Of a stretch of 64,000 bases of DNA, positions 41,833 to 64,000 are shown piece by piece. A model generated the notes under the pieces. It did not search any database. It was not told the origin of the DNA and saw only the letters and a list, made by a program, of their open reading frames with translations. A program made the position numbers and the translations under genes. The first letter of the stretch is position 1, and each line of letters opens with the position of its first letter. Source of the DNA: Woeseiaceae bacterium. GTDB lineage: Bacteria > Pseudomonadota > Gammaproteobacteria > Steroidobacterales > Woeseiaceae. Location of the stretch: contig JAJFKT010000015.1 in the NCBI GenBank assembly GCA_021773075.1, positions 109,022 to 173,021 of the forward strand, given 5' to 3'.

Positions 41833-41937
41833 GCCGCGAGTATAACGATTAAACACGTGAATGGGGTGGTGAGCGCTCGGTGCTGCGGGACCTGCCAAAT
41901 TGTCAGTAATTATAGAAATATCAGTGGTATAGACGTA

Positions 41938-41957
41938 TACTGTATATATTCACAGTA
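41938..41957. promoter_or_regulatory. LexA (SOS) box before DUF222-HNH gene
   Basis: TACTGTATATATTCACAGTA fits the gammaproteobacterial LexA consensus (TACTG-(TA)5-CAGTA, core CTGT-N8-ACAG). It begins 44 bp before the GTG start and overlaps a -10-like hexamer TATACT. A matching site precedes the second DUF222-HNH gene at 63120, which supports function. Confidence 0.85.
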
Positions 41958-41981: not shown

Positions 41982-43295
41982 GTGTCCACAGCCATCGCAA
42001 TTGTCCAAACTCCAGCAGAATCCATCGCCTCAGCTGCCGAGCAACTCGGCGCTGAGATCACCGAACTTTGCAGCTACATCTACGCTGCCGAAGCTCGTCT
42101 ACTGTCCTTGATTCGCCAGTTTGACCAGAACGAATACTGGGCTGGTCAGGGCCTGTGTTCCTGCGCGCATTGGCTGAATTTCAAATGCGGCATCGGTATG
42201 AACGCGGCCAGAGAGAAAGTGCGTGTCGCACATGCATTGGCCGGTCTGCCCAAGATCAACGAAGCAATGGCCAGTGGCAAGATGAGCTATTCCAAGGTCC
42301 GCGCGATAACGCGTATCGCCGACGAGACAAACGAGGACTACCTCCTGATGATCGCTGAACATGGCACAGCTCATCACGTCGAAAAACTCGTGTCGAAATT
42401 CCGTACGGCGAAGGGCTTGCAGGACGTCGAAATTGCTAACGAGCAATACAACAATCGCGAAGTAACACACTTTTATGATCACGATGGTTGCCTGGTCATA
42501 AGAGCGCGGCTGCCAGCGGAGCAGGGCGCATTGATCGTTAAGGCACTGGAAATGGCGATGGACAATGATTTCGCTGAGACAGAAGTTCTCACAGAGAATG
42601 ACGAGCCAACTCCAATCGCAGCCCGCCGCGCCGATGCTCTGGCAGAAGTTGCAGAAACCTACATGAACAACAACGAATCGTCAGGCTCGACGGCGGACCG
42701 TTATCAGGTCGTAGTTCATGTAGGAGTAGATTCCGAGGCTGAACGTGAATGCGTCAGCCACATTGAAGATGGCCCCGGCGTTACCGCGGTAACGTCGAGA
42801 AGAATTGCCTGCGACTGCACAGTCGTAGCGATAAAAGAAGACGAAAACGGCGAGCCACTCTCAATCGGCCGCCGATCACGGACAATTCCACCCCCAATGC
42901 GCCGTGCATTACGCGCGAGAGACAAAGGTTGCCGCTTTCCGGGCTGTACCAACACCCGATTTGTCGATGGACACCATATAGAGCACTGGGCCGACGGCGG
43001 TGAAACGAGTTTGGACAATCTTGTGCTGCTCTGCCGGCATCACCACCACCTGGTTCACGAGGGAGGCTTTGTTTGCGAGAAGTCTGCGGATGGAAATATC
43101 CAGTTCAGAGACCAGCGAGAGCAGCATTTGGAGCTGTCGCCACAAATGCCGGGCGTTGCTGCGAATGACGACGTGCAGCAATGGCTGGATCGTGAGTTTT
43201 TCGAGGCGAACATCGACAGTGAATCCTGTGCCGCCCGATGCCAGGCCGGGGAACGCATGGATTGGCATGCGGCGGTCGGAAGTTTGTTTTACTGA
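41982..43295 (+). CDS. DUF222 / HNH endonuclease domain protein (copy 1)
   Basis: A 437-residue protein with an N-terminal DUF222 (13E12 repeat) domain (NAAREKVRVAHALAGLPKI, GKMSYSKVRAITRIA) and a C-terminal HNH nuclease domain (GCRFPGCTNTRF, then VDGHHIEHWADGGETSLDNL and LCRHHHHLVH), including the His-Asn-His residues. Start GTG with GGAGGG six bases upstream. A LexA box covers the promoter, so expression should rise on DNA damage. The role of these proteins is unproven; they may be mobile or phage-related nucleases. A paralogue begins at 63120. Confidence 0.92.
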   Translation: MSTAIAIVQTPAESIASAAEQLGAEITELCSYIYAAEARLLSLIRQFDQNEYWAGQGLCSCAHWLNFKCGIGMNAAREKVRVAHALAGLPKINEAMASGKMSYSKVRAITRIADETNEDYLLMIAEHGTAHHVEKLVSKFRTAKGLQDVEIANEQYNNREVTHFYDHDGCLVIRARLPAEQGALIVKALEMAMDNDFAETEVLTENDEPTPIAARRADALAEVAETYMNNNESSGSTADRYQVVVHVGVDSEAERECVSHIEDGPGVTAVTSRRIACDCTVVAIKEDENGEPLSIGRRSRTIPPPMRRALRARDKGCRFPGCTNTRFVDGHHIEHWADGGETSLDNLVLLCRHHHHLVHEGGFVCEKSADGNIQFRDQREQHLELSPQMPGVAANDDVQQWLDREFFEANIDSESCAARCQAGERMDWHAAVGSLFY

Positions 43296-55339: not shown

Positions 55340-56482
55340 CTACTTCAAGCCAATCTCTGTGTTGCTGCGAATTTGATCCAGAAGCTGCGTTTCGCCGGAC
55401 GTGCCGGGAAGAAATTCATCTGTGTTGAATCCGCCGGGCTGAATGTCGACCAATGCGAGAATCTCGCGAAATTTTCCGCGCTTAAAGGACTCAGCTGAAG
55501 ACGATTCTCGGAGATGCAAATACAAGTCTGGCAAGAATCTCATGAATGCTCGGAATCCGTTTGTTCGCGGCAGGATGTTGCCTTTGTCTCTACTAATCCA
55601 ATCGTCATGCCATAGACTGTCAATAGCGTGGAAGTACTCCGATACATTTTTGGCGATCGCCGAGTCCTTCTCGCCGACAAATAAATGCCGAAAGGGCATT
55701 TTTCTTCGTTCATCATCATTTGGAGGTGCTAGCTTCTTGCCGCGAAGTAATCGATCGCGGTCCGTTACTTCGTCACTGGTTATTGTTGGCATGAGGGACA
55801 TGACAAACGCTGCTTGAGTGATGGTCTCGCCAGTCACGCCGGGTGTGGCGCTTCCTAATCTCTTAATCATCCCTTTGAACGGACTCTCTGCCGATCTATT
55901 CAGCGCAACGGCAATATTGTGACATGTTTTCTGAGGACTTCGAGATTTGGAGTAATCAAGAAGGTCGAAAACCAAACTTCGGTTGACCTTAGTTTGCGCG
56001 AGATTGACCGTAGCAAACATGTACGCTTGATCAGCGATATCGGCATCCACGACAATCGTTACCGGTACCTGAAATACTTTCTCCTCGAACGATCGCAATC
56101 CCTCGATTCTATGCTGACCATCCAGCACTTTTGCGATGTCAATAAATGCTATTTCGCGCCGCCCTTTCTTCTTGGCAACACTCGTTAACGTTAACAGCTT
56201 AGATTTTTCGTCGAATGAAGCGCACTCTCCCTCTACCGAAAGGACTATTGAGGTGGGGAACGCGGCATCGATCGTGTTCACAAATTTTCCGATATCCGCA
56301 ACGCGAGTCGGACTAAGTTTTCTTTGAATCCCAATATAGTTGTCAAGCTCTGTTTCGATTCTGCGCATGTCGACAAAAGAAATCTGACATAGGTCACTGT
56401 GATTCATAACGCCGACATAAAAATCGCCAATCGGTTGGGTCATTTTTATCGCATCAATAGTTATCTCGCCATGTTCCATCAC
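55340..56482 (-). CDS. DGQHR domain protein (DndB-like)
   Basis: A 380-residue cytosolic protein with the family motif VLDGQHRIEGL near residue 120 and the surrounding pattern (PVTIVVDADIADQAYMFATVNLAQTKVNRSLVFDLLD) seen in DGQHR proteins and in DndB, a regulator of DNA phosphorothioate modification genes. DndC, DndD and DndE are absent, so it is not a standard Dnd locus. Its start overlaps the stop of the upstream membrane protein gene by 4 bp. It is the last gene of the five-gene minus-strand island operon. Confidence 0.88.
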   Translation of the reverse strand: MMEHGEITIDAIKMTQPIGDFYVGVMNHSDLCQISFVDMRRIETELDNYIGIQRKLSPTRVADIGKFVNTIDAAFPTSIVLSVEGECASFDEKSKLLTLTSVAKKKGRREIAFIDIAKVLDGQHRIEGLRSFEEKVFQVPVTIVVDADIADQAYMFATVNLAQTKVNRSLVFDLLDYSKSRSPQKTCHNIAVALNRSAESPFKGMIKRLGSATPGVTGETITQAAFVMSLMPTITSDEVTDRDRLLRGKKLAPPNDDERRKMPFRHLFVGEKDSAIAKNVSEYFHAIDSLWHDDWISRDKGNILPRTNGFRAFMRFLPDLYLHLRESSSAESFKRGKFREILALVDIQPGGFNTDEFLPGTSGETQLLDQIRSNTEIGLK

Positions 56483-56991
56483 TGACCTCCTTCATCGCTA
56501 AGGTCTATCGACGATCCACTTTCGGCACGAGGTTGTTCGAGCATACGATCCATACGATATTGAAAGACTTGCGTTATGTACCAGGTGAGAATGGCGACGA
56601 TGTACGCGGCAATTGCAAAATAGAATACGTATTCCTTATCTACATCTGGATTCGTCTTCGACACTGCGTAGACGATGGCGGTGGAAAGGAGTAAACCCCA
56701 GATTGTCCACTCCAAAGCAAAGAAAGCGCTGCTATGTCGTCGAGCTCGCCAATGAAAAACCATGTATGTAATCGAAGGAGCAATGATTGCCGTAACATAT
56801 AGAAAGACTTCTGTCGGAATGAAGAATTCTGACCATGATTTTCCCAGGCCGGACAATGACTTGTAGCCATCATAACCATTTACTCCGCCGACAAGCCATA
56901 TCGATAAAATCGGAATTAGCGAAGATATGGACCAAATTGCAACGGTTTCCTTTGCCGCTTTGTAATAAGGTGTTTCGCGAAAATTGCGCAT
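56479..56991 (-). CDS. Four-helix membrane protein next to DGQHR gene
   Basis: A 170-residue protein with four hydrophobic segments (TVAIWSISSLIPILSIWLV, VFLYVTAIIAPSITYMVF, WTIWGLLLSTAIVYAV, YFAIAAYIVAILTWYI) and a short acidic cytosolic tail. No family is recognised. Translation is coupled by a 4-bp overlap to the DGQHR gene. In defence operons such small membrane proteins often act as effectors that disturb the membrane; here that is only inference. Confidence 0.72.
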   Translation of the reverse strand: MRNFRETPYYKAAKETVAIWSISSLIPILSIWLVGGVNGYDGYKSLSGLGKSWSEFFIPTEVFLYVTAIIAPSITYMVFHWRARRHSSAFFALEWTIWGLLLSTAIVYAVSKTNPDVDKEYVFYFAIAAYIVAILTWYITQVFQYRMDRMLEQPRAESGSSIDLSDEGGQ

Positions 56992-57026
56992 CAGATCCTC
57001 ATATAATAATTTTGGAGTGATTCAGT

Positions 57027-57839
57027 TCACCGCCAACACTGAATAACCAATTCGGATTGGAGTCCTCGGTACTCGCTTGATGCCGCAATTACACTCGACC
57101 GACTCACCCGCTCCTTAGAAAATCCACGGTAGAGTTTTCGAACGGTCGAATGGTCCGCGTTCGTAATCAAGACTTTGGCGCCTCTTATCGTAGCGTTTTC
57201 CACAGAATCGCGAAGGCGCAATTGATCTTGCCATGAAAAAATCTTCTCATTGTATTTTAGGAATCCGTTCAGATTGTGATTTACCGTGTACGGTGGATCA
57301 ACGAAGACAAAGTCTCCCTTCCCCGCGGCGCCGATGGTTACATCGAAATCGCAAACGCGTAGATCCGCATTTTGGAGCACCTCAGCAGTTTGGCGAAAAT
57401 CATCGGATGGCAGTAGAGCAGATTTCTTGCTGCCGATTGGAACATTGAAGTCCCCATTCCTGTTTACGCGGTAAAGTGCATTCCAGCATGTTCTATTCAA
57501 ATAGATCGTACGAGAAGCTCTCGCGAATTCTGACCTAGGGACTGTTGCTCGAACGTCGTAGAAATAGGATTTCGAGTGATTCTGGTCGTGCACTCGAAGA
57601 TACCGCCATACTAAATCGGGTCTTTTCCTTAGCGCGGTATATGCGTTAATTAGTTCACCGTTGATGTCTGAAAGAACGGCGCGTTTCGGAGCCAAGAAAA
57701 AATAGACAGCAGCGGAGCCAAGAAAAGGCTCGTAATAGCTTCGAAACCTTTTCGGAAAGAGATGAAAATGATCTTGGACAAACCAACGCTTGCCACCCGC
57801 CCACTTTAGAAATGGTGCAATTTCTTTCGCTTGATTCAT
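57027..57839 (-). CDS. Dam-type DNA adenine methyltransferase (D12 class)
   Basis: N6-adenine methyltransferase of the M.DpnII/Dam alpha class, about 270 residues. S-adenosylmethionine binding is indicated by FLKWAGGKRW and YYEPFLGSAAV; the catalytic motif IV is DPPYTVNHN. The family usually methylates GATC, but target specificity cannot be read here. Two possible ATGs (57851 or 57839) differ by four residues. It sits 35 bp upstream of the four-helix membrane protein gene and has no obvious cognate endonuclease on this strand. Confidence 0.93.
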   Translation of the reverse strand: MNQAKEIAPFLKWAGGKRWFVQDHFHLFPKRFRSYYEPFLGSAAVYFFLAPKRAVLSDINGELINAYTALRKRPDLVWRYLRVHDQNHSKSYFYDVRATVPRSEFARASRTIYLNRTCWNALYRVNRNGDFNVPIGSKKSALLPSDDFRQTAEVLQNADLRVCDFDVTIGAAGKGDFVFVDPPYTVNHNLNGFLKYNEKIFSWQDQLRLRDSVENATIRGAKVLITNADHSTVRKLYRGFSKERVSRSSVIAASSEYRGLQSELVIQCWR

Positions 57840-57960
57840 ATAGCACCCCATCCCCTATTCGGGCATTGTAGCCCACATATATCAACGATGCTTGAGATGT
57901 AGTTCTCGTAACGAGAGACTGTTGGTTTGACCATGAGTCGCCCACGTTGGTAGGGTGGCC

Positions 57961-58635
57961 CTACTGCTCCGGCAATTGATCGCTATTCGCTGCCTCGGCA
58001 TCCTCAGGCTCGTCTTGGCTCTCTGGAGCTTGAATGGGCAGTTCGATATCCGGCGCATCGCTAGCACTAATACTAGTTTCATCTGGTTGTTGAACTTGAG
58101 TAGTGCTGAACTCTTGGGTCTCCTTATTCTTTGCTTCCTCGGTCATAGGCGTAGGCGTGGTTACGATTAGCAGCAGTGCGAACAGTACAATTAACGCACC
58201 GCCGACTCCGTAGAAAGAATCCATTTTATCCTTCGAATGAAACGTTTTGCCAAAGAGATCGAAAGGACTTTCTTTGCCAATAGATTTGGTGAGTGAAAGT
58301 TCCGGCAACACATCCTCGTATTTTTCTTCGATTGCCTGGCCATGATATATAGAGCCCATTAATAGACGGTGATACCAAAACCGATCCATGAAGTACAACG
58401 CAAGCCAGAACACAAGTGCTGCCACAAGCACGTAGACACTAATTGGAATGACAATACTTCCAATTGATGCAGTAAGACCCTCTCTATATGACAAAGCAGC
58501 TGCGCCGAGAAGAGCACCCAAACCACCAACGGCGATGCTGCGAATTTTCATTTCGATGTCGTTAAAGTGTTTTTGAACATCAATCGTCGCTTTCCAGATT
58601 TCTACTATTGCGCCAAGTTCAGTCTTTTCGCTCAT
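57961..58635 (-). CDS. Membrane protein with two to three helices, SLATT-like in layout
   Basis: A 224-residue protein. An N-terminal helix (LGAIVEIWKATIDVQKHFND) leads to two adjacent membrane segments (IRSIAVGGLGALLGAAALSY, VYVLVAALVFWLALYFMDRFWYH), a cytosolic middle part, a third segment (GGALIVLFALLLIVT) and a long acidic, Glu/Pro/Gln-rich tail. The order of a helical stretch plus a double helix resembles SLATT-type 2TM effectors of antiphage systems; this is a layout comparison only. The ATG at 58635 overlaps the HAD gene end by 17 bp. Confidence 0.72.
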   Translation of the reverse strand: MSEKTELGAIVEIWKATIDVQKHFNDIEMKIRSIAVGGLGALLGAAALSYREGLTASIGSIVIPISVYVLVAALVFWLALYFMDRFWYHRLLMGSIYHGQAIEEKYEDVLPELSLTKSIGKESPFDLFGKTFHSKDKMDSFYGVGGALIVLFALLLIVTTPTPMTEEAKNKETQEFSTTQVQQPDETSISASDAPDIELPIQAPESQDEPEDAEAANSDQLPEQ

Positions 58636-59515
58636 CTTTTTTTCCTGTCGCGAATACGAAGTGGCCGAGCAATTCTGAGAATCCGTTTTCAAGCACAATG
58701 CTGGGCGTGACTTCGTCACGAGTCAATTTACGCTCAGTCGCTACTTGCTCGTCCGTCCAATGTGTCACTTCCCGTAATAGTTCATAGCTCTCTCGCGTGT
58801 GAGCTTCGCCGTATGCGGCGAGCACGTCATCAACGCCGGCATGCTGTGCCATCGCGACATCCTTAAATAGGCTATCGCCGACATAGACAGCATCGCTTTG
58901 GCTGACGCCCATGTCAGACACAATGTCTTGCAAGATCTGCGGATTCGGTTTGACTTCGCCGGCAGGAGTGTTCCTATGAACCGTCCTTTCCAGACTCTTG
59001 TATTCGGACTGAAATAGCTCTTCCCTATCGCGATTCAGGTTAGCCGGAATATCGTGGTCGGCGGGCGAGTAAATATAGTGGAGTAATCCATCAAGACCCA
59101 ATCGCGAGATTCGGTAGCTAGTATAGTAAGCCATCGATTCGGTATAACCGACTATTGTTCCTCCCGCCGCGGCAATCCCGGTTAGCGTATCAACAACTCC
59201 CGGGTACACCTCCAAAGTCTGTTCGCGTGCATCTCGGAACGCCTGGACGGCCTTTTGATAAGTTCGACGCGTACCTTCTGGGTCACTATGGTTCTGCAGG
59301 CTCGGGAGTTCCTCAATCAGAAATGCATATTCCGACGTGCCGTGGAGTTGATGAACAGACTTTATCTCCTTTACCAACTGAGAGCGGGGCATCTTACTCG
59401 TGGCCACGAGCGTATCCAGCATGGCTGAAAAGGACTGATACCAAATCTCAACCCAGTCAAACAGCGTATTGTCTAGGTCTGTAATTAGTAGCGTCTTTGG
59501 AATTGGTGTACTCAT
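58619..59515 (-). CDS. HAD superfamily hydrolase, first gene of island operon
   Basis: A 298-residue haloacid-dehalogenase-type phosphohydrolase. The nucleophile motif is ITDLDNTLFDW, the second motif TGIAAAGGTIVGYTES, the Lys motif AGEVKPNPQILQ and the acidic pair VGDSLFKDVAMA. All four catalytic motifs appear intact. It is soluble, with no signal peptide. Gene order makes it the promoter-proximal member of a five-gene unit with two membrane proteins, a Dam-type methylase and a DGQHR protein. Its substrate, a phosphate ester or nucleotide, is unknown. Confidence 0.9.
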   Translation of the reverse strand: MSTPIPKTLLITDLDNTLFDWVEIWYQSFSAMLDTLVATSKMPRSQLVKEIKSVHQLHGTSEYAFLIEELPSLQNHSDPEGTRRTYQKAVQAFRDAREQTLEVYPGVVDTLTGIAAAGGTIVGYTESMAYYTSYRISRLGLDGLLHYIYSPADHDIPANLNRDREELFQSEYKSLERTVHRNTPAGEVKPNPQILQDIVSDMGVSQSDAVYVGDSLFKDVAMAQHAGVDDVLAAYGEAHTRESYELLREVTHWTDEQVATERKLTRDEVTPSIVLENGFSELLGHFVFATGKKDERKD

Positions 59516-59591
59516 CCGAGCGTGCTGTCCTTGCGGGCTATATTCTTGGTGAGAGACTTACGTCTGCCAGAGAATTTGTAACAATTGGCCG

Positions 59592-59606
59592 CTGGTAGTC
59601 TACCAG
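59592..59606. promoter_or_regulatory. Perfect 15-bp palindrome between the divergent island operons
   Basis: CTGGTAG-T-CTACCAG has 7-bp perfect arms around one central base. It lies about 77 bp upstream of the HAD gene start and 300 bp upstream of the methyltransferase. No T-run follows, so an operator is more likely than a terminator. Confidence 0.5.
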
Positions 59607-59872
59607 TAGCTCGTAGTTATCTGCCGGCCTATATCAGTCGCCCTGTCAGATGTTATTCAGATGAACTGGATCGGTCTTAGTTACTAGATACCCCTTAGCC
59701 GTATTGTTGGCGGTATTGCCGTCGGAAGCTGACCGATTCAGGAACGAATCTACTACCTAGAATCATCGCTTAACCAAGGACGAGGATTGACCGATGATCT
59801 AGTTGCGATGAGACGTGCTCGTGATCAAGGACCTCTATGGAGTCGGCCGCTATGGCTCGCGCTGGGAATAAA

Positions 59873-59888
59873 TGATATCGTGATATCA
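59873..59888. promoter_or_regulatory. 16-bp palindrome just upstream of the C5 methyltransferase
   Basis: TGATATC-GT-GATATCA is a perfect inverted repeat 21 bp before the methyltransferase ATG. C5 methyltransferases of the SsoII type bind such operators through an N-terminal extension to repress their own gene; this enzyme also has an N-terminal extension, so the site is a good candidate. Confidence 0.55.
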
Positions 59889-59909
59889 ACTCGTCCCAGA
59901 GATCGCAAA

Positions 59910-61190
59910 ATGACAAAAGATGTCCTGATTCGTGACTTAACAACTGAAGATCAAAACTGGCTAAATGACGCGAAGCCCGCTGGCATTTCCCAAGTGGAAT
60001 TCCTCCGCTCGGTATTGCGGGAAGCGAGGGATAATTCATTGCAGCCGAGTCTCTTTGATTTCGCGATTGAGCCTAAGACCGTTTACGGAAACGTGCCGTT
60101 CAAATTTATCGATCTGTTCGCCGGCGTTGGCGGATTTCGTTCGGGGCTTACTGCCTTGGGAGGCAAGTGCGTATTCACCAGTGAGTGGGATAAATTCAGT
60201 AACAAGACATACCAATCCTGGTTCGGGGATGAAGATGTTCATACTGGCGATATTCGTGAATTGGACATCCGCACTGAGATCCCGGACCACGATGTCCTCT
60301 GCGCAGGTTTTCCTTGTCAGCCGTTCTCATTGGCAGGCGTGTCGAAAAAGAACTCTCTCGGTCGCAGCCATGGATTCGAGGATGAAACTCAGGGAAACCT
60401 TTTTTTCAAAATCATGGATATTGTCGATAAAAAACGGCCACCGGTTCTGTTCCTTGAGAATGTTAAGAACCTTAGATCTCATGACAAGGGAAATACGTGG
60501 AAAGTAATTCAGGATTCTTTGATCGAACGTGACTACTCGGTATTTAGTCGCGTTATCGATGCTCGTGGCTGGGTTCCTCAACATCGAGAGCGCATCTTCA
60601 TTGTTTGTTTTGATAAACAAATCTTTGGACGAGAAGACGAGACTAATTTCCAGTTTCCAGAACCGCCGGAAGGGGAACCGCTTACGTTGAGCTCTATTCT
60701 GGAGACCACGGCGCCGGATAAGAAATACATGCTTTCCGACAAACTGTGGAGCTACTTACAAGCCTACGCGGAGAAACATAGAAAGAAAGGTAATGGATTC
60801 GGATATAGCCTGTTCACAGGTAAGGATGTGGCCCGCACACTGAGCGCGAGGTATCACAAAGACGGCTCGGAAATCCTGATCAAACAGAAGGGCTGGAGGA
60901 ACCCAAGAAGATTGACGCCTCTCGAGGCGAAACGGCTAATGGGTTTTGTCGACAAATATGCTGAAATGTATGGGCATGAGGATGGTTTTCCTCAGGTTGT
61001 GTCAGACACACAGGCGTATAGACAGTTCGGCAATGCAGTCGTACCACTGGTAGTAGAGGCTATCGCGCGTGAAATAGTACACACTATGTCGCAGGCGATA
61101 ACTACAGCGGAAAACAGCTGCCTGCTCAAAGGGCGAGTTTTTGCATCCGATAAGAATGGACGTACACGACAAGGAAACGCGCAGCCGTAA
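59910..61190 (+). CDS. Type II DNA cytosine-5 methyltransferase
   Basis: Modification enzyme of the restriction-modification system, about 427 residues. Ordered C5 motifs: I (FIDLFAGVGGFRSGL), IV with catalytic Cys (AGFPCQPFSLAG), VI (FLENVKN), VIII (QHRERIFIV), X (YRQFGNAVVP). A roughly 55-residue N-terminal extension (LTTEDQNWLNDAKPAGISQVEFLRSVLREA) precedes motif I and could bind DNA for autoregulation. ATG at 59910 is preferred over the track start at 59787. The 3' end overlaps vsr by 35 bp. With a Vsr enzyme and an MvaI-type nuclease, the target is probably a CCNGG-type site, which is inference. Confidence 0.95.
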   Translation: MTKDVLIRDLTTEDQNWLNDAKPAGISQVEFLRSVLREARDNSLQPSLFDFAIEPKTVYGNVPFKFIDLFAGVGGFRSGLTALGGKCVFTSEWDKFSNKTYQSWFGDEDVHTGDIRELDIRTEIPDHDVLCAGFPCQPFSLAGVSKKNSLGRSHGFEDETQGNLFFKIMDIVDKKRPPVLFLENVKNLRSHDKGNTWKVIQDSLIERDYSVFSRVIDARGWVPQHRERIFIVCFDKQIFGREDETNFQFPEPPEGEPLTLSSILETTAPDKKYMLSDKLWSYLQAYAEKHRKKGNGFGYSLFTGKDVARTLSARYHKDGSEILIKQKGWRNPRRLTPLEAKRLMGFVDKYAEMYGHEDGFPQVVSDTQAYRQFGNAVVPLVVEAIAREIVHTMSQAITTAENSCLLKGRVFASDKNGRTRQGNAQP

Positions 61191-61617
61191 TATGTCCCGC
61201 ATTCGCGGGACGAATACAAGACCAGAGCTTCAGGTAAGAAGAGTTTGCCATGGGCTGGGATTCCGATACCGGCTTCATCGAAAAGATCTCCCAGGAAAAC
61301 CGGACCTTGTCTTTCCCAAATATGGGGCCGTTGTATTTGTGAACGGTTGTTTCTGGCATGGCCACGATTGCCATCTGTTTAAAACGCCAGGCACTCGTAC
61401 GGAGTTCTGGACGGAAAAAATTGCCGGAACCAGGGCGCGAGATGAGTATCAGATCGCGCAGCTCGTTGACCTCGGATGGAGAGTGATGACCATTTGGGAG
61501 TGTGCGTTGAAAGGGAAGGGTAGACTGGATACTGACGAGACTGGTAGCCGAATCTCGGAGTGGTTGCTTTCGGGGACCGTGGTCTCAGAGGTTCGGGGGA
61601 GGATGAATGGGGCCTGA
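61156..61617 (+). CDS. vsr: Very short patch repair endonuclease (Vsr)
   Basis: Nicks DNA at T:G mismatches that arise when methylated cytosine deaminates, so that they are repaired to C:G. The 153-residue protein has the family start TRSRNMSRIRGTNTRPEL, the nuclease region KPDLVFPKYGAVVFVNGCFWHGHDCH with the catalytic and zinc residues, and the later LGWRVMTIWECAL. It overlaps the methyltransferase gene by 35 bp and the endonuclease gene by 11 bp, so all three are translated together. Confidence 0.95.
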   Translation: MDVHDKETRSRNMSRIRGTNTRPELQVRRVCHGLGFRYRLHRKDLPGKPDLVFPKYGAVVFVNGCFWHGHDCHLFKTPGTRTEFWTEKIAGTRARDEYQIAQLVDLGWRVMTIWECALKGKGRLDTDETGSRISEWLLSGTVVSEVRGRMNGA

Positions 61618-62953
61618 TCTTGCAACCTTGAAGAAGATGATGTCAGACCACGGCGTCCAAAGACTTCTGTTCAAGCGGCTATCACCCAATGACAACAGCA
61701 AGAATCAGCCTTATTTCGGGCCTGATCTTACGTCTCTCGGTTTTATTCCTACTGGGGAAATAAGAGGGACACCGACCACTTCGGATAAGCCGAAGAAGTC
61801 GCAGGTGAAGTTCCTGGCATCTTTGGATTTTTATTGGTTGGGTGACGAAGGAGAACTCGCGTCGGCGCCGAATGCCAAGCTCATTTTCTATCCTCAATAT
61901 CCTGAAGTGCGGTTTTCTGGTTTTCTTCTTGGATGCGCTTCAGGACCAAACGAGCTGATGGACCCTAAAAAACGTGGCAGGGAAGAAGGGCGGATATTAT
62001 TTCTCGGGATTAGTCAGGATGGAAGAATTATCGGGTATCTGGCCCCTGCAGATTCTGAAATAGCGCGGTACCTGACCGGCACATGGGATTTTGCATCAAT
62101 TGGAGTGTTTGAAGAAGTACCGACAGTCTATGCGGCGGCACCGTCTGACTCGAGATCGGAGCTACTTCGGGAACTGCGGCGTATCAGTGCGAAGGGCTGG
62201 ATAGATTCAAAGCGATTGAAGGCGGACGGTTCGACAATCGCATACAGTGCGCCGAATGGGGGCGGCTTCACTCTCGAAGCCGAATTTGGGATTACCCCGA
62301 ACGGTTATTCGGAGCCGGACTTTCTTGGCTGGGAGCTCAAACAATACGCCGTGCGTAATCTGGATAAACCGTCGGGAGGGCGAGTTACGCTGATGACGCC
62401 AGAGCCGAACGGCGGCTTCTATAAGGATCGAGGAGTCGAAGAATTCCTTCTCAAGTTTGGATACGCGGATACAAAAGGGCGAGATCGCCTTAATTTCTGT
62501 GGGACGCATAAGGCTGGCGTGAAGCACCAAAGAACGGGACTTACTTTATCCATGCCGGGGTTTGATGAAGAAAATACCAAGTTGATCGACCCGTCTTCGG
62601 GCCTGTTTCTTGTTAACGACGATGGCGAACCCGCAGCGACATGGAGTTATGCCTCGATTCTCGACCACTGGAAAAGGAAGCATGCTCAAGCAGCGTATGT
62701 TCCATCTACTCGGCGTCGGGATCCGAAGTTGCAGTACCGATTCTCGAGTAACGTCGATCTTGGCACAGGCACAGGCATGTCACGATTGCTTGGTGCCATA
62801 TCAAGCGGGACAGTATTCTACGATCCAGGAATAATCATGAAGGATGCGTCTGGCTCACGACGCCCGATCAAACGTCGAAGCCAATTTCGAGTAACTGCGC
62901 CGAATTTGCATACCCTCTATGAATTGTTTGAGCGAGTAGTCCTCGACGAATAA
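61607..62953 (+). CDS. Type II restriction endonuclease, MvaI/BcnI family, with N-terminal extension
   Basis: Restriction enzyme of the system. The C-terminal part holds the MvaI/BcnI signature GGGFTLEAEFGITPNGYSEPDFLGWELKQY, which includes the catalytic Glu, Asp and Lys of a PD-(D/E)xK-like nuclease, followed by a catalytic-domain tail. At 448 residues it is nearly twice as long as MvaI or BcnI; the first 190 residues (LLFKRLSPNDNSKNQPYFGPD onward) form an extra beta-rich domain that may add DNA recognition. The ATG follows GGGAGGA. Expected target family CCNGG-like, not readable from sequence. Confidence 0.92.
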   Translation: MGPDLATLKKMMSDHGVQRLLFKRLSPNDNSKNQPYFGPDLTSLGFIPTGEIRGTPTTSDKPKKSQVKFLASLDFYWLGDEGELASAPNAKLIFYPQYPEVRFSGFLLGCASGPNELMDPKKRGREEGRILFLGISQDGRIIGYLAPADSEIARYLTGTWDFASIGVFEEVPTVYAAAPSDSRSELLRELRRISAKGWIDSKRLKADGSTIAYSAPNGGGFTLEAEFGITPNGYSEPDFLGWELKQYAVRNLDKPSGGRVTLMTPEPNGGFYKDRGVEEFLLKFGYADTKGRDRLNFCGTHKAGVKHQRTGLTLSMPGFDEENTKLIDPSSGLFLVNDDGEPAATWSYASILDHWKRKHAQAAYVPSTRRRDPKLQYRFSSNVDLGTGTGMSRLLGAISSGTVFYDPGIIMKDASGSRRPIKRRSQFRVTAPNLHTLYELFERVVLDE

Positions 62954-63058: not shown

Positions 63059-63094
63059 TTGATTTACAACAAACTACTGGTTATAATAACAGTA
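63059..63094 (+). promoter_or_regulatory. Promoter with LexA (SOS) box before DUF222-HNH copy 2
   Basis: TTGATT is followed after 17 bp by a consensus -10 TATAAT. The -10 lies inside TACTGGTTATAATAACAGTA (63075-63094), a 20-bp LexA-type site (core CTGG-N8-ACAG, TACTG/CAGTA ends). It ends 25 bp before the ATG. The same kind of site covers the promoter of copy 1 at 41982. Confidence 0.82.
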
Positions 63095-63119
63095 CTTATT
63101 CACACCACAAGGACGTGTC

Positions 63120-64000
63120 ATGAAGCCAACAAAATCACCCGAAAATCGTCTTCTCTCTATTGACGAACTCGATCGCGACATCGTCAATCTCGCCGCCCGA
63201 ATCAACGCGGCTACCTACGAGTTACTCGTGCTCATTCGCCAATTCGACGAGCGTGCCGGCTGGCTGAAATGGGGCCTTGGGAACTGTGCCGAGTGGCTGC
63301 ATTATCGCTGCGACCTCTCCATGAATGCCGCGCGTGAAAAAGTCCGTGTGGCACACGCGCTCAAGACTTTGCCCGACATCGCAGCCGCATTTGCAACGGG
63401 CGACCTGTCGTATTCCAAAGTTCGAGCGATGACACGTGTTGTTGTTAATAATTCGGAACTCTTGTCGTTTGCCTTAAAGACAACGACAGCACGTGTCGAG
63501 GAACGCTGCCGGGAGTTGCGTTGCGGCACGGTGGATTCCCTCGATGGCGCGCAGCGTGCGTTTGCCAATCGATCACTGCGCGTCAGCCGCAATGCCGAAC
63601 GGGGAACGATGACCATCACCATCGAACTCCCGATAGAGACCGGCGAGCTGGTGGCCAAAGCGCTCGACAAGGCACGCGATGATTCGACGTCACAATTGGA
63701 GTTTGTCGATGACTCCTTCTCAGCCCGACAGGCTGATGCGATGGTATCAATGGCGAGTGGGTATCTGTCGGGTAATGCAGAGCGATCGTGCAATTCCTCG
63801 CGTAACACGTCGGACGACTACCTGGTGACAGTCCACGTCGATCAATCGGCACTCGCTACCGGCAACGGTCGCTCAAACCTCCCCATCGAAAGTGTCAAAC
63901 GACTGTGTTGTAATGGTCATGCGGTGGTTCTCGGTGAAGATGAGAATGGCGAGCCATTGAATATCGGTCGCAAGACCCGAACCGTGCCAACGGCCATCAA
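63120..64000 (+). CDS. DUF222 / HNH domain protein (copy 2, cut by window edge)
   Basis: Paralogue of the protein at 41982, not listed in the ORF track because it runs off the window. Starts ATG (MKPTKSPENRLLSIDELDRD) after an AAGGA site. The DUF222 region matches copy 1 closely (YELLVLIRQFDE, NAAREKVRVAHALKTLP, LSYSKVRAMTRV), and the pre-HNH segment VVLGEDENGEPLNIGRKTRTVP parallels VVAIKEDENGEPLSIGRRSRTIP. The HNH domain itself should lie beyond the edge. LexA box in the promoter. It lies about 166 bp after the endonuclease gene and borders the island. Confidence 0.9.
   Translation, partial: MKPTKSPENRLLSIDELDRDIVNLAARINAATYELLVLIRQFDERAGWLKWGLGNCAEWLHYRCDLSMNAAREKVRVAHALKTLPDIAAAFATGDLSYSKVRAMTRVVVNNSELLSFALKTTTARVEERCRELRCGTVDSLDGAQRAFANRSLRVSRNAERGTMTITIELPIETGELVAKALDKARDDSTSQLEFVDDSFSARQADAMVSMASGYLSGNAERSCNSSRNTSDDYLVTVHVDQSALATGNGRSNLPIESVKRLCCNGHAVVLGEDENGEPLNIGRKTRTVPTAI

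Follow-up and report, generated by a model that had tools for sequence, protein, structure and literature searches.

The question raised by this locus is why two DUF222-HNH genes should each carry a LexA box on their promoter, and what a nuclease placed under such control would be made for. The window, i.e., the whole stretch of 64,000 nucleotides analyzed here, is the terminal part of contig C7 from a 4.09 Mb gammaproteobacterial genome (family Woeseiaceae) in 37 contigs; its two DUF222-HNH genes are called copy 1 and copy 2 in order of position. Judging from sequence comparisons and predicted structures, DUF222-HNH is probably a LexA-repressed, stand-alone DNA endonuclease, joining a predicted ParB/Noc-like domain to an HNH domain, which is made during the SOS response, with the host chromosome as its likely target. 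The features on which the argument is built are as follows.

41913–41941, + strand: copy 1 promoter TAGAAA-N17-TATACT, with its −10 hexamer at 41936–41941 overlapping the box (hexamer scan).
41938–41957, + strand: copy 1 LexA box TACTGTATATATTCACAGTA (site read in the window; clade conservation).
41982–43295, + strand: DUF222-HNH copy 1, 437 aa, GTG start (DUF222 and HNH model matches).
42084–42410, + strand: predicted ParB/Noc-like DNA-binding domain of copy 1, residues 35–143 (AlphaFold model, structural alignment, profile comparison).
42873–43133, + strand: HNH nuclease domain of copy 1, residues 298–384 (domain match, invariant residues, structural alignment).
61607–62953, + strand: MvaI/BcnI-type restriction endonuclease adjoining copy 2, judged incidental (domain match; flanks of copy-2 orthologues).
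63059–63064, + strand: copy 2 −35-like hexamer TTGATT (a TTGATT-like stretch is kept across the copy-2 clade).
63075–63094, + strand: copy 2 LexA box TACTGGTTATAATAACAGTA (site read in the window; conservation in the copy-2 clade).
63082–63087, + strand: copy 2 −10 hexamer TATAAT, within the LexA box (promoter hexamer scan).
63120–64000, + strand: DUF222-HNH copy 2, which runs off the contig end (DUF222 model match in the window).

Membership was defined as a match above the curated cut-off to both the DUF222 (PF02720) and HNH (PF01844) models. Copy 1 exceeds both cut-offs; for copy 2, DUF222 was matched in the window and the HNH motif was found on contig C33. The first 141 bases of C33 are the same as the end of copy 2, and C33 supplies the remainder of the gene and its stop codon; read through from C7 to C33, copy 2 gives a product of roughly 420 residues that has both DUF222 and HNH, the HNH motif being intact. 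Further downstream on C33 lie a 56-base DUF222 remnant (L205:1459-1514) and a truncated, frame-broken DUF222 copy about 93% identical to copy 2 (L205:3726-4714), which represent local turnover of the family.

In both copies, the LexA box overlaps the −10 hexamer, placing a host-type operator on the promoter. A sequence-only reading of the window had described the copy 2 box as lying over a near-consensus promoter, and this description holds: the box is found exactly as given, and TTGATT-N17-TATAAT, whose −10 it covers, is the top-scoring of all hexamer pairs scanned upstream of the gene. The same reading had seen in the two genes diverged paralogues, both boxed, about 21 kb apart; the boxes are, in fact, separated by 21,137 bp, and the proteins are 38% identical across 293 aa.

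As for the regulator, the genome has recA and a lexA-imuA gene pair, LexA and RecA being confirmed by family models. The recA promoter carries TACTGTTGATATACACAGTA, an operator of the same type as those of the DUF222-HNH copies, and TACTGTGAATACATACAGGA lies upstream of lexA together with an overlapping weaker site; because recA and lexA carry such sites, the host LexA most likely reads an E. coli-type operator. The exact pattern TACTG-N10-CAGTA occurs at four sites in the 4.09 Mb genome (recA, a PA0069-family radical-SAM gene, copy 1, and copy 2), with about 3.2 sites expected from base composition, and a reversed control pattern has more genomic matches. As the count equals the expectation, the genomic rarity of this ten-base pattern was dropped as proof of LexA sites. 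A pattern no commoner than expected would also suit the boxes being chance matches in AT-rich promoters, an explanation that is practically without credit, being refuted by the controls given below. What departs from chance, as far as the sequences tell, is the position of the sites, the operator type shared with recA and lexA, and the conservation across relatives.

We, therefore, turn to the family at large, for which DUF222 genes were gathered from the host family, named genomes, and actinobacteria, plus further copies; several of these hosts are MAGs and could be mislabeled. DUF222 is found in 55 of the 107 genomes of the host family, with 1–10 copies each, and in 98 of the 296 actinobacterial genomes sampled (a third). 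The E. coli-type box was scored as a fixed 12-base core with at most two mismatches, untrained on these data. In the proteobacterial set, 92/133 DUF222 genes have such a box (these genes are related and not phylogenetically independent), against a mean of 0.5 and a maximum of 3 among 133 in dinucleotide shuffles, 0/134 with the reversed motif, and 4/378 for neighbor genes at the same loci. Scoring actinobacterial genes for TCGAAC-N4-GTTCGA, again with at most two mismatches, gave 39/60 boxed DUF222 genes (likewise not phylogenetically independent), a mean of 1.9 and a maximum of 5 among 60 in shuffles, and 4/61 for neighbor genes; none of these 60 DUF222 genes has an E. coli-type box. Kinship makes the Fisher P values for this enrichment overstate its significance, yet the effect is large. 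About 30% of the proteobacterial copies and 35% of the actinobacterial ones are without a good box. Within the copy-1 clade, the box TACTG...CAG is retained in all 21 of 21 genes and is the strongest conserved upstream element; the copy-2 clade has the form TACTGnnTATAATnACAG, with the −10 inside it and a left half-site that is decayed in several members.

Selection for SOS control, as the sequence-only reading had suggested from two genes, is strongly supported by these family-wide boxes and by the presence of the host-appropriate LexA motif in two phyla. Its statement that the second paralogue carries its box independently has to be modified: the boxes of proteobacterial paralogues may be a common inheritance, and the actinobacterial motif is the better evidence of independence. 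The boxes could also belong to a different repressor that recognizes a similar site, given that further LexA-like repressors exist and that acidobacterial copies have a different conserved upstream stretch; we find this highly improbable, as host recA and lexA bear the same box type and the motif becomes that of actinobacterial LexA in actinobacteria. The placement of one gene bears on the same point. This gene, L145, comes from an Actinomycetota MAG but falls within a clade whose remaining members are proteobacterial, apart from a few from other non-actinobacterial hosts (support 99/98), and its box, TCGAACGTATGTTCGA, is of the actinobacterial type; two further DUF222 copies in this genome have the box TCGAACACATGTACGA. 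As L145 is nested in a proteobacterial clade with an actinobacterial box, the operator appears to follow the host LexA, and the comparison suggests, for this one genome with unchecked binning, that the operator was re-matched to the host LexA after transfer.

Two side observations touch upon operators elsewhere. In DUF222 genes of an Acidobacteriota MAG (L141, L153), a common stretch, TTACACCTAA[AG]ATnCACCTCATG, unlike a LexA box, lies just upstream, and one of these genes has a 7-base inverted repeat (TTTAGGT/ACCTAAA) upstream; the common stretch may serve as operator for a repressor particular to this phylum. In the present genome, a perfect LexA box, TACTGTGCATTCATACAGTA, at L002:1501-1520 belongs to the PA0069-family radical-SAM gene (L002:1545-2597), located on contig C4 near 276.3 kb. 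The PA0069 family is kin to Rv2578c, and the RecA-dependent genes of M. tuberculosis are reported to include a DNA repair photolyase; the radical-SAM gene may be a further SOS gene common to different phyla.

What would be produced under this control was addressed with the AlphaFold model of copy 1, which has a mean pLDDT of 82.5 for the whole protein and of 94.1 for the N-domain folded alone. For residues 35–143, the ten best structural matches are all ParB/Noc/Spo0J proteins (Z 7.7–10.2), the next unrelated one having a Z of 6.2. Profile comparison to ParB gave a score of 24.2 (P 0.015), versus at most 19.3 in 30 shuffles, and aligned DUF222 “LPxIxAAFxxGxLSYSKVRAxTRVA” to ParB “GxLxxGHARALL” in the same register as the structures. 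Foldseek with the whole model returned no significant match, and the ParB-like match was moderate (E above 0.1). A ParB/Noc-like DNA-binding domain at residues 35–143 is, on these models, supported, not proven; the match could reflect a shared helical arrangement, as helical folds readily give middling Z scores. About 34 mostly helical residues precede the helix-turn-helix region in the model. Toward its C-terminus, the model resembles the HNH domains of McrA-type enzymes and of IscB (Z 6–8). Of the seven positions that do not vary across 78 proteins, five are Cys or His residues in the HNH domain; searching solved structures by sequence yielded only weak matches, for the most part to the HNH stretch. 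The idea of a “damage-triggered nuclease family” put forward by the sequence-only reading stands at the level of domains and operators, the activity itself being only predicted.

The mechanism that we propose is the following. LexA would directly repress each stand-alone DUF222-HNH unit through an operator placed over the −10 of a sigma-70 promoter; upon DNA damage, RecA filaments would lead to LexA self-cleavage, and DUF222-HNH would be turned on together with recA and lexA. The ParB/Noc-like helix-turn-helix domain would carry the endonuclease to DNA and the C-terminal McrA/IscB-type HNH domain would nick or cut it, the target most likely being the cell's own chromosome during active RecA recombination. 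The purpose would be to process DNA in connection with recombination, and gene conversion between copies would be the visible by-product.

In the genome as a whole, DUF222 has seven matches, four of them with a readable promoter: copies 1 and 2 are boxed, the C23 copy has no box (best candidate with five mismatches), and in the C19 copy, the box is decayed to its right half-site and the first half of the HNH motif is lost. The C4 and C5 copies are interrupted by contig ends, and the C33 copy is 5′-truncated and frame-broken. The expectation that boxes would recur at paralogue promoters genome-wide is, hence, borne out at copies 1 and 2 and not at the C23 and C19 copies. Upstream of the C23 copy (L006), a perfect inverted repeat CTGTTTT-N7-AAAACAG was seen, the spacing of which is wrong for LexA. 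A link between loss of the box and loss of HNH was considered and rejected, as the table behind it is unreliable (motif filter too strict, many genes cut by contig ends). The C4, C5, and C23 copies have long identical stretches in common, and the gene-sized repeats show patchy identity of 67–100% that stops at or just past the gene; by analogy, this patchiness resembles the gene conversion of REP13E12 in M. tuberculosis (PMC13061034).

Such repeats raise another possibility, that of a selfish, homing-like nuclease. With RecA plentiful, it would cut chromosomal sites from which it is missing or whose sequence departs from its own, and the copies would thereby spread and replace one another's sequence by gene conversion; SOS control would then time the cut for repair by recombination. 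The patchy presence and variable copy number in the host family, the boundaries of the repeats, the pseudo-copy and remnant downstream of copy 2, and the ranking of REP13E12 among the strongest gene-conversion hotspots of M. tuberculosis, with 87 events (PMC13061034), all suit this idea, but repeats alone also yield gene conversion, no conserved insertion site was seen, and relatives are nearly absent from plasmids and phages. Only 3 of about 123,000 records in plasmid and phage collections hold one, and viral contigs hold none, which also leaves the suggestion that the family might mobilize accessory DNA unsupported. We hold the homing-like explanation to be possible, although rather less likely than not to apply here.

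A third purpose is suggested by the surroundings of copy 2. The island at 55340–62953 comprises a DGQHR/DpdB-like protein (55340–56482), a D12 adenine methylase (57027–57851), a C5 methylase (59787–61190), and the MvaI/BcnI-type restriction enzyme (61607–62953). DUF222-HNH could, accordingly, be imagined as a damage-triggered suicide or defense nuclease that degrades the chromosome once a cell is badly damaged or infected, all the more as overexpression of the DNA-cutting HNH nuclease MSMEG_1275 is lethal to M. smegmatis (PMC9416677) and Ref, an HNH enzyme of P1, breaks down the genome in the SOS response (PMC4713147). However, MSMEG_1275 is not an established DUF222 protein and was the only lethal one among five overexpressed HNH genes; the neighbors include neither an immunity gene nor a partner gene, defense genes are few there, and neither copy 1 nor copy 2 matches a PADLOC model. 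The restriction-island link drawn by the sequence-only reading is not supported by comparison either: copy-2 orthologues (80–93% identical) have no MvaI/BcnI-type gene within the flanks examined, and none of the families among 812 neighboring frames is found at more than four DUF222-HNH loci. The defense-island link is incidental, DUF222-HNH genes stand alone, and we regard a suicide or defense role as unlikely. The commonest neighbor family is an integrase-like gene, near DUF222-HNH at four loci (L109, L122, L141, L275).

Weighing the three purposes, we place recombination-linked processing of the chromosome first, homing-like spread second, and suicide or defense third. A combined scenario, which we offer tentatively and on balance doubt, would be that of an ancient chromosomal family cutting only in the SOS window, with RecA recombination spreading and homogenizing its copies and the operator being re-matched, upon transfer, to the LexA of the new host. 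DUF222 has had no function assigned to it so far, and LexA control with unrelated motifs in two phyla would make damage timing part of its role; a predicted ParB-like DNA reader, an HNH cutter, and SOS wiring make the function of DUF222-HNH directly testable, and SOS-timed cutting may account for the gene-conversion hotspots at these genes in M. tuberculosis.

SOS control of 13E12/HNH genes is already known in that species: after mitomycin C treatment, RecA dependence is seen for five HNH endonuclease genes (PMC8151990), moxifloxacin induces Rv3074 and Rv3776, both of which have LexA boxes (PMC7911356), and the LexA regulon was described as including ten 13E12 HNH genes, with a speculative role in mismatch repair (PMC4181829); REP13E12, HNH endonuclease, and DUF222 have been handled as one repeat class (PMC10589994). 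No literature on DUF222 with LexA, or on such regulation in gammaproteobacteria, was found in a search of mainly open-access papers. Within the literature searched, the proteobacterial occurrence, the cross-phylum pattern, and the ParB-like domain appear to be new.

Among known systems, P1 Ref is an HNH nuclease acting during SOS (PMC4713147), as proposed for DUF222-HNH, but it is phage-encoded and cuts only RecA-bound DNA, a need for RecA that we do not claim here. ParB/Noc/Spo0J proteins resemble residues 35–143 in predicted fold and in register; they differ by the CTPase domain ahead of their helix-turn-helix, which is absent from DUF222-HNH, a protein ending instead in an HNH nuclease domain. 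That HNH fold is held in common with the McrA/TagI/ScoMcrA type IV restriction enzymes and with IscB, whose N-terminal domains are different, no guide RNA or modified-base domain being detected in DUF222-HNH. As for the REP13E12/13E12 genes of M. tuberculosis, an actinobacterial LexA box is expected there, whereas the genome studied here has the E. coli-type box. They are otherwise similar to DUF222-HNH, being chromosomal, multicopy, part of the LexA regulon (PMC4181829), and prone to gene conversion (PMC13061034).
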